Shown here in pieces: positions 6,793-22,581 of a stretch of 34,262 bases of DNA (positions within the stretch are counted from its first letter, which is position 1; the number at the start of each line of letters is the position of its first letter). Both the position numbers and the translations under genes were made by a program. The stretch comes from a virus. Under the pieces are notes generated by a model. It did no database searches. It was not told where the DNA came from and saw nothing but the letters and a program-made list of their open reading frames with translations. Location of the stretch: IMG/VR virus record IMGVR_UViG_3300032315_001496, positions 1-34,262 of that record, one strand, 5' to 3'.

Positions 6793-7139
6793 ACAACCAA
6801 CATCCCATTACCCCACCGTTTGAGCTGGTGCAACAGTGGATCAACGAGGGAGATGGCTTCACTGAAGGGTACTTCGCCACCCAAGCCGCAAACTGGGGTG
6901 CTGACCAACAACTTGCAAAAGATGCAGAGTGGCTGGATCAACATGCTCTTGATGCGCCACACTTAAAAATTACTCCAGTGGGTGAATCTTTAAAAGAAGC
7001 CATGCGCCCCAAGCCGCCGAGCTTGAAGGAGCAGGCGCTTGCTGTGATCGAAAATTCTTTATGGGTTTGTGACCACTTAAGTTCACAGGATGAAACAATC
7101 CTCCGCCACGCACTGGAGGCATTGCCCAATGACTGTTGA
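6789..7139 (+). CDS. RPKPPxLKEQAL family protein, copy 2
   Basis: A 116-aa paralogue of the protein at 5833, with ITPPFELVQQW, AANWGADQQLAKD, MRPKPPSLKEQALAVIE and ETILRHALEALP in the same order. Middle parts diverge. It overlaps the genes before and after, so the run 5625-7764 is one operon that ends in thyX. Confidence 0.75.
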   Translation: MNNQHPITPPFELVQQWINEGDGFTEGYFATQAANWGADQQLAKDAEWLDQHALDAPHLKITPVGESLKEAMRPKPPSLKEQALAVIENSLWVCDHLSSQDETILRHALEALPNDC

Positions 7140-7764
7140 TTTAGTCCACGTCACTCCTAATGCTGAAGAATTGATTACGAAGATGGCGCGGGTCTCTGCG
7201 CCAGAAAATCAATCAAACATGGAGACTGCTCCTCGGTTGCTTCGTTACCTGATCAAGCACCAGCATTGGAGCCCATTTGAGATGGCAAACATGTGCGTCG
7301 AAATTCAAACGACACGCGGCATCTCTGCTCAAATCCTGCGTCACAGAAGCTTTTCATTCCAAGAATTCTCCCAGCGATATGCAGACGTTTCGGCGATGGG
7401 TTCCGCTGAAATGCCTCAGCTCAGACGCCAGGACTACAAAAACAGGCAGAATTCTATTGATAACCTAACTCCAGAAGAAGTTGGTGTGTACTACAGGCGC
7501 ATCAGCCAACTCTTTGAGGATGCTGAGCACCTCTACCGTGAAATGGTCAGCAACGGCGTAGCTAAAGAGTGTGCTCGTAACGTGCTTCCCCTGTCATCCC
7601 GGACGCGTCTATTCATGAATGGGACGCTGAGGTCGTGGTTGCACTATATCTCTCTCCGTGAGGCACACGGGACTCAGTTAGAACACCAGGTGATCGCCAA
7701 GGAAATCAAAGCGATCTTCACGGAACAGTTCCCAATCATTGCCGAAGCTGCCTTTAGCAGCTAA
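7129..7764 (+). CDS. thyX: flavin-dependent thymidylate synthase ThyX
   Basis: The 211-aa protein makes dTMP from dUMP with methylene-tetrahydrofolate, FAD and NADPH. The family signature RHRx7S is present as R71-H72-R73 to S81 (RHRSFSFQEFS), followed by QRY. Later, RSWLHYISLREAHGTQLEHQ matches the dUMP-binding region of ThyX. Length is close to the usual 210-250. ATG 7129 is used because it overlaps the preceding stop; an earlier start would lie deep in the upstream gene. With the dCMP deaminase at 14100 it forms a dCMP to dUMP to dTMP route for phage DNA synthesis. Confidence 0.95.
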   Translation: MTVDLVHVTPNAEELITKMARVSAPENQSNMETAPRLLRYLIKHQHWSPFEMANMCVEIQTTRGISAQILRHRSFSFQEFSQRYADVSAMGSAEMPQLRRQDYKNRQNSIDNLTPEEVGVYYRRISQLFEDAEHLYREMVSNGVAKECARNVLPLSSRTRLFMNGTLRSWLHYISLREAHGTQLEHQVIAKEIKAIFTEQFPIIAEAAFSS

Positions 7765-11943: not shown

Positions 11944-12569
11944 TCAGCGGTAGTTGTCTCGTATAAAAAGTGATCGGACGTTTCTATCATGCGGGAATTT
12001 TCAACACTGTACTCAGTAAGATCAATTTCATATCCAGGATTCTTTTCAATCCTGTTCTTAAGCCACGCATCATCGTACCAGATGATTCGGTTGTTTGGGT
12101 ACGCATAAAAATTGCCATCATCCATCCGAAAGAAGTGTGCACACTTGTGTTCAGGTGTTTCACTGAAATTAGTATTGAGAGTTGATTTAGATTCCCAAGA
12201 CCAATCAAGGGTGAACATGTAGATGCCATTATTTTTTTCACCTTTAAAATTAATTAACTGTGCACGCAAATTAGAAAGACGTGCCCTAACTTGTACGTCA
12301 ATATATGGAGAAAAACAATCCCACCAAATGCACTCATTTAGTTCTGGTTTGGGGGCGTCTGGTTTCCAGCAAAGAGCGTGGATTGGGCGCCTTGTCCAGT
12401 TAACACCATTTTCTAAAAACACTTCAAACAAAGGGACGTGTTTCTCCAGGGATGCTACAGAGTGCACGTCACACAGAGTGACATCACCATGACCTTGCTT
12501 GTGATTATATAAAAATTCGTTTCGGATATAGCAAGTAAATGTCGGCAGGTTGTGATTTAAGTAGCTCAT
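11940..12569 (-). CDS. conserved cyanophage protein (MSYLNHN type)
   Basis: A 209-aa protein starting MSYLNHNLPTFTCYIRNEFL, followed by a block with HGDVTLCDVHSVA and PIHALC. I recognise this as a protein widespread in marine cyanophages with no known function. It is beta-rich at the N-terminus and ends in a polar tail. Its stop overlaps the polA stop by 4 nt in the convergent direction. Upstream on its strand is CACTATAG within a short palindrome. Confidence 0.8.
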   Translation of the reverse strand: MSYLNHNLPTFTCYIRNEFLYNHKQGHGDVTLCDVHSVASLEKHVPLFEVFLENGVNWTRRPIHALCWKPDAPKPELNECIWWDCFSPYIDVQVRARLSNLRAQLINFKGEKNNGIYMFTLDWSWESKSTLNTNFSETPEHKCAHFFRMDDGNFYAYPNNRIIWYDDAWLKNRIEKNPGYEIDLTEYSVENSRMIETSDHFLYETTTAD

Positions 12570-12628
12570 TTAAGTTGCTAGTGCCTGCTTACTATAGTGC
12601 ACTGGCGGGCGCTGTGCGCATATACAGA

Positions 12629-12838
12629 TTATTTATTCTTGTAACGTTTGGCGGCGCGGACTGCTTTGCCAGCCTTCTTTGCTGTCTCTGTATTTGGTAC
12701 GAATTGTTTCCCTTCTTTACTGCCTGCACGTTTTTTGCGATCAGTTTCTTCCCTTTCTTCTTTAGATAAAGAAGCCCACGCTTTTTCTGGAAGATACCTT
12801 TTGGTATAGCCAGATTGAATTGCTTTGTCGGCGGTCAT
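12629..12838 (-). CDS. DUF5872-type protein, C-terminal piece
   Basis: A 69-aa basic protein: TKRYLPEKAWASLSKEERE, TDRKKRAGSKEGKQFVPNT and a lysine-rich tail. This matches the C-terminal half of DUF5872-type proteins as I know them from phages and giant viruses. Its ATG overlaps the stop of the upstream piece (CGATGACC). In the family both halves are one chain, so either re-initiation or a -1 slip at A-AAA just before the stop (AAAACGATGA) could link them. Function unknown; the charge suggests nucleic-acid binding or packing. Confidence 0.7.
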   Translation of the reverse strand: MTADKAIQSGYTKRYLPEKAWASLSKEEREETDRKKRAGSKEGKQFVPNTETAKKAGKAVRAAKRYKNK

Positions 12839-13023
12839 CGTTTTGATTCCTTATGGGCTTTAGCTTTGGCTTTTGCTTTAGATCTTTTTTCGTACTCATC
12901 TTTTGTTTGCCACTTTTCTTTGCCCCATTTTTCTAAAGATTTTTGTTCCGCGCCCTTACCTCCTCTATAGCCGCCCCCGGCTTTTTCGTATTCCTGTGCT
13001 ACAAGTTGAGCTTTGCGTGCCGA
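12835..13023 (-). CDS. DUF5872-type protein, middle piece
   Basis: Open frame of 62 codons from the landing TCG at 13023 to TGA: ARKAQLVAQEYEKAGGGYRG, SLEKWGKEKWQTKDEYEK, then an alanine-lysine tail. It continues exactly where the piece at 13145-13041 stops, in another frame. No ATG precedes it. GTG at 13050 opens the same frame but would add nine residues unlike the family and has GGGGAG directly against it rather than at a working distance. Expression therefore needs bypass, re-initiation at a weak codon, or does not occur. Confidence 0.6.
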   Translation of the reverse strand, partial: SARKAQLVAQEYEKAGGGYRGGKGAEQKSLEKWGKEKWQTKDEYEKRSKAKAKAKAHKESKR

Positions 13024-13046
13024 ATTAGTTAGCCTCCCGGCTACGA
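13021..13046 (-). other. candidate translational bypass element
   Basis: Read on the minus strand: TGG, take-off TCG (13046-13044), stop TAG (13043-13041), then CCGGGAGGCTAACTAAT and landing TCG (13023-13021), followed by GCACGCAAAGCT. TAGCC-GGGA-GGCTA forms a 5-bp hairpin with a GNRA loop that includes the stop. GGGAGG lies 9 nt before the landing codon. Skipping the 20 nt joins GEWS to ARKAQ, the family sequence. Matching codons, stop in a hairpin and a Shine-Dalgarno before landing are all features of the T4 gene 60 bypass. Confidence 0.5.
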
Positions 13047-13145
13047 CCACTCCCCTGGTTTACCACCACGGCTTTCACGCATTACACGATTTTTAATGCG
13101 TTCCCGCAATTCAGGTTTCGTGTACTTGGTTTTATCTTCAGCCAT
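13041..13145 (-). CDS. DUF5872-type protein, N-terminal piece (copy 2)
   Basis: A 34-codon frame: MAEDKTKYTKPELRERIKNR, then RESRGGKPGEWS and TAG. YTKPELRERI..R and GGKPGxW are the opening blocks of DUF5872-type proteins. The ATG lies inside the end of the HNH gene (ATGGCTGA at 13145-13138), so its translation is coupled to that gene. Ribosomes stopping at TAG would give only this short peptide; bypass would give a 95-aa product ending at 12835. Confidence 0.7.
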   Translation of the reverse strand: MAEDKTKYTKPELRERIKNRVMRESRGGKPGEWS

Positions 13146-13746
13146 AGCTTCCTCGTTGTTTAAGGTAAAGAACTGCATTTGTCAGTACCTCTATATTATC
13201 ACCGAACAAGCCCAAAGCCCTGTTGCACTCTTTGCAAAGCAATCCACGGAACTCGTTTGTTGAGTGATTGTGATCCATTGCCAGATCGTGGGTGTCTTTA
13301 GGCAGGCTTTTGCAAATAGCGCATTTACCTTCTTGCACTTTAAACACTTGTTCATATTGTTCTTTTGTAATTCCCCTGCGTTCATATTTTCTACAAGAGT
13401 GGTGAAACTTATTTTGGCCTTCTTTTTTAATCTCAATATAATGTTCTTTATTGTTTTCTACCCATTTATCCCATTTAATTTTGTTACAAGATTTGCACGA
13501 AGAATGTAAATATAATTTACCATCTTGTCTTCTTCTTCCAAAACACTCCCAATCTAAATAAAAGGAACATTTAGAACATTGTTTTTTCCCATCAGCTCCA
13601 TATAAAAGTTTGAGGCGGCGATTTACCAAGGACTTGCAATCTTTGCAAACACTGTCTCTTCTTATATTGCCAACTGAAGTGTGCCCTTTTTTATAAAAAT
13701 TTTCGTGCGGTTTTCTGATCCCGCACTCACGGCAAAGTTTTTGCAT
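13138..13746 (-). CDS. endonuclease VII-type HNH nuclease, probable homing enzyme
   Basis: A 202-aa protein with three cysteine clusters: C5/C8/C34/C37, C57/C60/C84/C87 and C142/C145/C171/C174. The last encloses LAMDHNHSTNEFRGLLCKEC with D158-H159 and N160-H161, followed by LGLFGDN, the T4 endonuclease VII (gp49) signature. The two N-terminal ribbons are typical of free-standing phage homing endonucleases, not of the resolvase itself. It sits between two copies of the DUF5872 N-terminus, overlaps the second, and has a hairpin before its start. No Shine-Dalgarno is evident at ATG 13746. Confidence 0.85.
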   Translation of the reverse strand: MQKLCRECGIRKPHENFYKKGHTSVGNIRRDSVCKDCKSLVNRRLKLLYGADGKKQCSKCSFYLDWECFGRRRQDGKLYLHSSCKSCNKIKWDKWVENNKEHYIEIKKEGQNKFHHSCRKYERRGITKEQYEQVFKVQEGKCAICKSLPKDTHDLAMDHNHSTNEFRGLLCKECNRALGLFGDNIEVLTNAVLYLKQRGSYG

Positions 13747-13753
13747 TGGGTTG

Positions 13754-13780
13754 TCTGTGCTTTTCTTACAATAGCACAGA
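13754..13780 (-). promoter_or_regulatory. 8-bp hairpin before the HNH gene
   Basis: TCTGTGCT and AGCACAGA enclose 11 nt. The hairpin lies between the stop of the truncated DUF5872 copy (13782) and the HNH ATG at 13746. Homing endonuclease genes of T4-like phages often carry such hairpins to lower translation of early transcripts; a similar role is inferred here. Confidence 0.5.
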
Positions 13781-13781
13781 A

Positions 13782-13865
13782 TTATTGCCCAGGCTTACCA
13801 CCTTTGGATCCAGCCATGATGCGTTCTTTAATTTTTTCACGCAACTCTGGCTTGGTGTAAGACAC
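13782..13865 (-). pseudogene. truncated DUF5872 N-terminus (copy 1)
   Basis: GTG 13865 opens 27 codons, SYTKPELREKIKERIMAGSK then GGKPGQ and TAA. It aligns with the first block of the DUF5872 piece at 13145 but differs at many bases, so it is an old or foreign copy. An ATG slightly upstream (MAREES) is in another frame. In-frame after the TAA the codons for RKAQ reappear, possibly a remnant of the native continuation. It looks like the upstream stump left by insertion of the HNH gene. Confidence 0.6.
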
Positions 13866-13881
13866 TTAATACTTTCTTCTC

Positions 13882-13909
13882 TTGCCATCCTACCAAGACC
13901 TGATACACT
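13882..13909 (+). promoter_or_regulatory. sigma70-type promoter
   Basis: TTGCCA, 16 nt, TACACT, preceded by TGA. It drives the gene at 13933 through the leader TCACGCACACACC, which abuts the ATG. It overlaps the 5' side of the divergent DUF5872 stump. Confidence 0.5.
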
Positions 13910-13932
13910 GTCCTTGATCTCACGCACACACC

Positions 13933-14103
13933 ATGAGGCCACAGAAAATCGACGCTATCAAGGCGTCACTCGACGACATGACCCTAGAAGAACTCAAAGA
14001 AATGAGCGACGATCTCACTAAGCTCATCGAAGTCTTTATCCAGCGTCAGGAAGCCGTGGAATCCACCATCGTTGATCGCCTTACAGAGACTTTTGAAAAA
14101 TGA
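13933..14103 (+). CDS. small acidic helical protein
   Basis: A 56-aa protein, almost entirely helical (IDAIKASLDDMTLEELKEMS, LTKLIEVFIQRQEAVE). The leader has no Shine-Dalgarno. Its TGA overlaps the dCMP deaminase ATG (ATGA), so the two are coupled. No domain recognised. Confidence 0.7.
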   Translation: MRPQKIDAIKASLDDMTLEELKEMSDDLTKLIEVFIQRQEAVESTIVDRLTETFEK

Positions 14104-14552
14104 ACGCTGATGAACATCGTTGGCATGAACGATTTATTAAACTTGCCCATGAAGTGGCTGAATGGAGTAAAGATCCATCAACAAAAGTTGGTTGCGTTCT
14201 TGTAAAAAACAAACGTGTAATCTCCACTGGATACAACGGCTTCCCCAAAGGCATTAGCGACAGCTTTGATCGCCTAATGGATCGAGAACAGAAGTATGAA
14301 ATGACCGTTCACGCTGAGATCAATGCAATCACAACTGCTGCTCTTCACGGTGTCAGTACTGAAGGAGCTATTGCTTACATCACTTTCAATCCATGCTCTC
14401 GCTGTGCTGCTGTACTTATTAACGCTGGCATTGGCTCAATTTATGTAAGCACTGCTAACGATATCCCCACCAGGTGGTTAGAAAACTTTATCCTGGCCAG
14501 CAAAATGCTTGCCGAGGCTGGGGTAGAGTACCAAACGATTGATGCAAGCTGA
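14100..14552 (+). CDS. deoxycytidylate deaminase
   Basis: A 150-aa zinc enzyme that converts dCMP to dUMP, the substrate of ThyX. Zinc and catalytic residues are H71-A-E73 (VHAEINAI) and C99-x2-C102 (NPCSRC). DPSTKVGCVLV and GYNGFPKGI are typical of phage and bacterial dCMP deaminases. Length is usual. It lies in an operon with the 56-aa gene and SSB (15 nt downstream). Confidence 0.92.
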   Translation: MNADEHRWHERFIKLAHEVAEWSKDPSTKVGCVLVKNKRVISTGYNGFPKGISDSFDRLMDREQKYEMTVHAEINAITTAALHGVSTEGAIAYITFNPCSRCAAVLINAGIGSIYVSTANDIPTRWLENFILASKMLAEAGVEYQTIDAS

Positions 14553-22127: not shown

Positions 22128-22520
22128 TTATACAGCTGCTGCGGCCGGTAACTCCCGGTTGAACATCTTCAGCAGAAACCGATCGCACTTAAATGCTTTC
22201 TTTAGGTGGTTGCACGCCAGCTCAGGGTTGGTGTGCTTCCCGCAAGTAAATGCATCAACAGCTGCATAACCCAGTTCAGGCCAGGTGTGGATGGAGATGT
22301 GGCTCTCAGATAGCAGGGCTAAAGCAGTTACGCCTTGTGGTTCAAACTTATGGGAGGTCAGGCTGAGTAGGGTCGCGCCAGAACGTTCGGCTGCTTCCTT
22401 GAGTGCGTCATTGATAAACTCCTCAGAGTCCAAGAGGTTCGGGTTGCCGCCATAAAGTTCGACAATGCAATGCCGCCCTACAGTCTCATCCAATTGCCCG
22501 TACACATAGTTTGTATTCAT
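22128..22520 (-). CDS. speD: S-adenosylmethionine decarboxylase
   Basis: A 130-aa pro-enzyme of the bacterial class. LLSESHISIHTWPELGYAAV holds the self-cleavage site between E72 and S73, where Ser73 becomes the pyruvoyl group; H78 and C94 match the conserved catalytic residues. It makes decarboxylated AdoMet for spermidine. ATG 22520 has AAGGA 7 nt upstream; a TTG at 22544 is less likely. Cyanophages are known to carry speD; a polyamine role in DNA packing or host physiology is inferred. It lies next to the tRNA on the same strand. Confidence 0.93.
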   Translation of the reverse strand: MNTNYVYGQLDETVGRHCIVELYGGNPNLLDSEEFINDALKEAAERSGATLLSLTSHKFEPQGVTALALLSESHISIHTWPELGYAAVDAFTCGKHTNPELACNHLKKAFKCDRFLLKMFNRELPAAAAV

Positions 22521-22581
22521 TCTAAAGTCCTTTACCTTGCTCAATTCCTAGGCAGACACAGGAATCTCTGTTATCTTCTAA

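Follow-up and report, generated by a model that had tools for sequence, protein, structure and literature searches.

The question raised by one locus in IMG/VR virus record IMGVR_UViG_3300032315_001496 is whether a small gene that is split by a stop codon and a short gap is still translated as a single protein. The whole stretch analysed, positions 1 to 34,262 of the record (34,262 nucleotides, nt), is referred to here as the window. On its minus strand, an open frame ends in a UCG serine codon directly followed by UAG; 20 nt further on is a second UCG, from which the remainder of a DUF5872-like gene can be read. A preliminary description of this DNA had proposed a programmed translational bypass of the kind known from bacteriophage T4 gene 60. 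Comparison with relatives adds that a mobile element has inserted in the DUF5872-like gene, with the 20-nt gap as its right-hand end, and that the gap belongs to an endonuclease cassette that supplies a replacement N-terminus of its own. We consider it very likely that this is a mobile translational-bypass cassette working like T4 gene 60; judged from sequence comparisons, this reading is favored over loss of function, re-initiation, and frameshifting.

The components that had been described were all located on the minus strand (Table 1): a UCG take-off codon, the UAG, a hairpin UAGCC-GGGA-GGCUA with a minimum free energy of -6.3 kcal/mol in isolation, and a matching UCG landing codon, with “gap” here meaning the nucleotides between take-off and landing codons. 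Both frames are undamaged, as had been noted. The first open reading frame (ORF1, or N’) has the sequence MAEDKTKYTKPELRERIKNRVMRESRGGKPGEWS; its ATG overlaps the 3’ end of an endonuclease ORF (ATGGCTGA) and a Shine-Dalgarno-like GAGG lies immediately upstream. From the landing codon onward the second (ORF2) reads SARKAQLVAQEYEKAGGGY, without any ATG, GTG, or TTG codon. The break between ORF2 and the next ORF is native, because intact genes of relatives stop at the same ATGA point. The assignment to DUF5872 stands as a weak Pfam resemblance, below the curated cut-off of 27.5 bits (22.2 bits, E = 2e-4, for an intact relative; 14 bits for ORF2 of the window), and “DUF5872-like” is the safer term. 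An identical 26-mer, running from UCG to UCG, is found in a second IMG/VR contig, at the same position of the same gene; with this exact recurrence, and the same arrangement in 40 distinct copies, chance is not a sufficient explanation.

The order of the element is left hairpin, endonuclease, N’, gap, landing codon, and its insertion point is between the Gln and Trp-Ser codons of the DUF5872-like gene. In many copies, as in the window, the endonuclease is preceded by the stranded native N-terminal fragment of the interrupted gene. The endonuclease ORF, of the Endonuclease VII family, is presumed to be the element’s homing endonuclease; wherever an endonuclease of this family is intact, its stop codon is 91 nt from the take-off codon. 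Alignment with a close relative lacking the gap, which the preliminary description had suggested, is provided by L091 (same contig as L002), whose gene is uninterrupted: it reads GKPGQWSARKAQ, continuing GQWSARKAQ. The DNA polymerase of L002 is 96% identical to that of the window, and the two contigs are 90–92% identical in neighboring stretches and 85% from the landing codon onward. A second pair, L106 and L107, has flanks that are 99.2% identical, with the element in one and absent from the other. In both pairs the endonuclease ORF is found in the occupied allele and is missing from the near-identical empty one, as expected of a homing element. At the sequence level, these empty and occupied sites demonstrate that the element is mobile.

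Pattern scans of IMG/VR, together with relatives, yielded the 40 distinct copies. A first scan fixed part of the cassette; repeating it with the take-off codon free, and with the loop and inner stem free, added no deviating copy. The take-off codon is invariably UCG, and the landing codon is UCG in all but two copies, which have UCU. The hairpin UAGCC-GNRA-GGCUA is present throughout, with loops GUAA (25 copies), GUGA (11), GGGA (2), GCAA (1), and GAAA (1). At the landing position, UCG is the serine codon in 38 of 40 copies vs. 8 of 68 intact genes (Fisher p = 8e-19), while the codons after it vary: GCA, GCT, GCG, or GCC for Ala, and AGA, CGT, CGC, AGG, or CGG for Arg. Gap lengths are 20 (2 copies), 21 (11), 24 (14), 25 (7), 26 (5), and 30 nt (1), or by residue modulo 3, 26 copies with 0, seven with 1, and seven with 2. 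Since all three residues occur, a frame-independent jump would be needed. An endonuclease-based search, blind to the hairpin, found 37 loci with N’ and a gap region, and 36 of these are canonical. The internal Shine-Dalgarno sequence that had been proposed fared less well: GGGAGG is indeed at 13033–13038 (-), 9 nt ahead of the landing codon, in the window, and occurs in L082, but other copies have GTAAGG, GTGAGG, and the like. The strong motif is thus not conserved; every copy does have RAGG within its hairpin, at a distance from the landing codon that shifts with gap length.

The two UCU-landing copies, L165 and L231, are of one lineage and have UCG as take-off codon. By established wobble rules, a UCN-reading tRNA(Ser) should still read UCU. 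Another three loci (L172, L223, L227) have the same gap and N’ beside a second endonuclease subfamily (~51% identical), without a stranded native N-terminus.

The proposed events would begin with an Endonuclease VII-type homing endonuclease inserting in the small DUF5872-like gene between the Gln and Trp-Ser codons, the element supplying a recoded substitute (N’) for the severed 5’ part along with a short coding gap and a landing codon. A ribosome would initiate at the ATG of N’, within the overlap with the endonuclease ORF, and translate 34 codons to UCG. With UAG of the UAGCC-GNRA-GGCUA hairpin in the A site, peptidyl-tRNA(Ser) would release, the ribosome would slide 20–30 nt, and the tRNA would re-pair at the next UCG, or rarely UCU. 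Decoding would restart at the Ala codon (...GEWS-ARKAQ...), and the product would be a family protein with a single serine, regardless of gap length. The anatomy, recurrence, and constraint of the copies, and their mobility and persistence without the endonuclease, can be read directly from the sequences; we infer that there is a ribosome hop, that the hairpin and the nascent peptide have roles in it, and that the endonuclease cleaves the empty site.

Table 1. Features of the interrupted DUF5872-like locus in the window
Feature	Position	Strand	Remarks
Take-off codon UCG (Ser)	13044–13046	-	UCG in 40/40 copies
Stop UAG directly 3’ of take-off codon	13041–13043	-	First bases of hairpin
Take-off hairpin UAGCC-GGGA-GGCUA	13030–13043	-	Starts with UAG stop
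Gap	13024–13043	-	20 nt
AU-rich spacer ACUAAU (ACTAAT) between hairpin and landing codon	13024–13029	-	6 nt; 6–16 nt across copies
Landing codon UCG	13021–13023	-	UCG 38/40, UCU 2/40
N’ (ORF1), replacement N-terminus	13044–13145	-	34 codons; ends GKPGEW-S(UCG)-UAG
ORF2, remainder of DUF5872-like domain	12835–13023	-	62 codons + stop; frame open to 12838
Next ORF of locus, 69 aa	12629–12838	-	ATGA overlap with ORF2
Endonuclease VII-family ORF, 202 aa	13138–13746	-	Pfam PF02945, E = 5e-21
Left-end hairpin CTGTGCT...AGCACAG	13755–13779	-	Just upstream of endonuclease start
Stranded native N-terminal fragment of DUF5872-like gene	13782–13865	-	GTG start, ...GKPGQ, stop TAA

If the gene is not read by bypass, it may simply have been broken by the insertion, with N’ and the gap as by-products of homing and the downstream part a pseudogene or unimportant fragment. 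The element spreads horizontally, the same gap being found in divergent genes, so an open ORF2 could mean recent insertion, and one copy (L243, below) has a damaged hairpin. Decay of the downstream frame in relatives, which had been named as a finding that would speak against bypass, was looked for, but ORF2 is open in every copy, and neither it nor ORF1 has a frameshift or stop in any of the 40. Median ratios of nonsynonymous to synonymous substitution (dN/dS) are 0.04 for N’ in group A copies and 0.12 in group B (range of medians 0.04–0.14), and 0.07–0.09 for ORF2; both halves are under purifying selection. In nine copies the endonuclease has been cut to 0–61 residues, with different end points, and N’, gap, and ORF2 are all retained. 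Among these, L177 and L202 have inherited a common arrangement that lacks both the endonuclease and the native 5’ exon; their 26-nt gaps are identical and both sides are constrained, with ~30% synonymous differences (7.0/23.8 in N’, 8.8/28.7 in ORF2) and few replacement changes (3.0/78.2 and 7.2/109.3, respectively). No second intact copy of the DUF5872-like gene was seen in 19 records, several of them 70–86 kb long. A broken gene is unlikely on these grounds. Termination at UAG followed by re-initiation, with ORF2 made as a separate protein and the gene expressed in two pieces, would agree with the constant Shine-Dalgarno-like AGG in the loop and stem, with the in-frame AUU or AUA within some 21- and 24-nt gaps, and with an internal ATG at codon 7 of ORF2 in group B; T4 topoisomerase is a case of working split subunits. 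It seems quite improbable, however: 11 copies, including the window, have no standard start in the entire ORF2; only the window (GTG) and L082 (ATG) have a standard start after the last in-frame stop and before the landing codon; in nine copies a stop in the landing codon’s frame immediately precedes it; and the fixed UCG pair would be left unexplained.

The downstream frame is open through the 20-nt gap of the window and L082, where -1 frameshifting at UCG-UAG could yield ...GEWS-VAGRLTNS-ARKAQ.... The remaining 38 copies have downstream-frame stops inside the gap, and there is no slippery heptamer. Because gap lengths cover all three frames, neither frameshifting nor readthrough can be the common mechanism; together with the in-frame stops, this led us to reject frameshifting as a general mechanism, and even for the window we give it almost no credence. 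Removal of the gap or the whole element at the RNA level, as an intron or small excised segment, is very improbable. For positions 12400–14200, Rfam gave no group I or II intron at any E value up to 5, and no self-splicing intron of 23–33 nt is known. Splicing out the whole element would moreover leave the conserved N’ pointless, and in L177 and L202 neither the endonuclease nor the native 5’ exon remains.

Several observations count against translational bypass, or limit what the copies can say about it. In L243, the exception among the 37 endonuclease-linked loci, the inner hairpin has been lost (gap TAGCTATAATATTAAATAATT) although the downstream frame is kept; perhaps this copy is decaying, or perhaps bypass can partly do without the hairpin. 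The stem is invariant, giving no base-pair covariation, and loop variation stays within GNRA. Stretches of 70 nt show no remarkable fold energy (z -0.3 to -1.6). Fixation of the landing UCG may partly reflect descent if this codon travels with the element, in which case the element itself supplies the matching landing codon. The divergence of ORF2 may be largely older than the separate insertions, and selection after insertion can be judged only in the copies without endonuclease. The codon-7 ATG of group B could be the source of a shortened product. Finally, there is no clear counterpart of the 5’ and 3’ stem-loops or the GAG site of T4 gene 60. No conserved extra stem was identified near the gap; a candidate 5’ hairpin upstream of the take-off codon (CGGUAAACCG) was dropped, as it is not kept in group B. 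The element copy of L243 (1501–2400) also carries unusual substitutions in its N’ (KNSVMREGNGG).

The resemblance to T4 gene 60 that had been pointed out, in matching codons and a stop in a short hairpin, proves closer than described. The T4 record reads GGA-UAGCC-UUCG-GGCUA-...-AUUAUU-GGA, close to the homing-endonuclease gene mobA. As in the cassette, UAG directly follows the take-off codon and lies in a short hairpin capped by a stable tetraloop; T4 and the cassette share the 5-bp stem UAGCC/GGCUA base for base, at the same position; and a matching landing codon follows an AU-rich 3’ part of the gap, with AUUAUU right before landing in T4 and in many 24-nt copies. An HNH-type endonuclease insertion near the gap, a fragmented target gene, and related phages without the insertion are likewise common to both (PMC3014915, PMC5009743). 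The two differ in gene, in codon (UCG vs. GGA), in loop (GNRA vs. UUCG), and in gap length (20–30 vs. 47 nt); the cassette’s endonuclease is of the Endonuclease VII family, and the cassette, which occurs in many phages, supplies a replacement N-terminus. The stem match is possibly coincidence, because only two of its five pairs, beyond the stop codon, are informative. Shared descent and convergence are both possible for T4 and the cassette family. A DNA alignment with T4 was not used as evidence: the L082 row was miscoordinated and T4 was out of register. In the window and in most group A copies, N’ has K-x-K-Y-T-K, 24–29 residues ahead of the serine in the P site; in T4 gene 60 the nascent-peptide stimulator KKYK is 29–32 residues before the take-off glycine. 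KYTK is also found in intact genes, and group B varies (KGNYTK, KGRYTK); the similarity may be coincidence or pre-adaptation.

The T4 gene 60 bypass has been called apparently unique (PMC3014915). It is the established phage case, with an insertion that split gene 39, and besides it only Hau3 and, separately, Corndog have been suspected (PMC3014915, PMC5009743, PMC11194080, PMC4351075). In the tape measure gene of mycobacteriophage Corndog, an HNH insertion is followed by a coding stretch without a start codon, and bypass was considered by the authors (PMC4351075); unlike the cassette, its gap is ~600 bp, no matched take-off and landing cassette was described, and ACG initiation is equally possible. 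The bypass proposed for the terminase of Streptomyces phage Hau3 (PMC5009743) is tied to UUA decoding in the host, rather than to a mobile insertion. The byp elements of Magnusiomyces capitatus mitochondria are short, described as mobile, and bypassed in translation, leaving the protein intact (PMC5009743). They are likened to the cassette here by description, not by sequence, and differ from it in being mitochondrial, with many per genome. Within the openly accessible literature that our search covered, programmed coding-gap bypass in phages is established for T4 gene 60 only.

It is likely, if less so than bypass at the locus itself, that self-mobile bypass cassettes are widespread in environmental phages, each equipped with its endonuclease, a substitute for the start of the gene, and a minimal hop signal of 20–30 nt that has its own landing codon, splitting genes without silencing them. 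T4 gene 60 would then be a relic or a convergent case, and a gene that loses the endonuclease could keep the hop as an ordinary component. Which signals of gene 60 matter, and how bypass arises, had been unclear; the 40 natural copies, with gaps of 20–30 nt and the T4 stem, and the empty alleles and endonuclease-free relics, are comparative data that were previously missing. The copies point to a minimal signal: matching codons, plus a 5-bp tetraloop hairpin whose base holds the stop. Whether bypass gaps belong to homing cassettes can now be tested directly, and phage genes annotated as broken or split may be translated whole.

The cassette was not found outside environmental sequences in the searches made: blastn of the locus against isolated phages gave nothing, tblastn of the endonuclease against the same set gave only relatives below 60% identity, and the cassette pattern and endonuclease had no relatives in 84,980 prokaryote genomes. 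A search for the same hairpin after any UCG, with TGG not required, returned only unrelated sequence without a preceding open frame, so no gene other than the DUF5872-like one was seen to carry a cassette. The cassette is also absent from L268, L270, and L271, which are distant relatives of the endonuclease. Synechococcus phage S-EIV1 is an isolated relative with an intact gene, which suggests freshwater cyanobacteria as possible hosts of the group A copies. Divergent relatives of the same small gene are carried by the isolated marine phages L339 (Pelagibacter phage HTVC033P), L337, and L338.

The left-end hairpin is CTGTGCTATTGTAAGAAAAGCACAG in the window and TTTTGTGCTATTGTAAGAAAAGCACAA in relatives, with almost the same sequence at the corresponding position of other copies; it might regulate expression of the endonuclease or act as a recognition end. 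By Pfam, the window phage also encodes S-adenosylmethionine decarboxylase (22131–22544, -), ThyX (7090–7761, +), and a dCMP-type deaminase (14100–14549, +).
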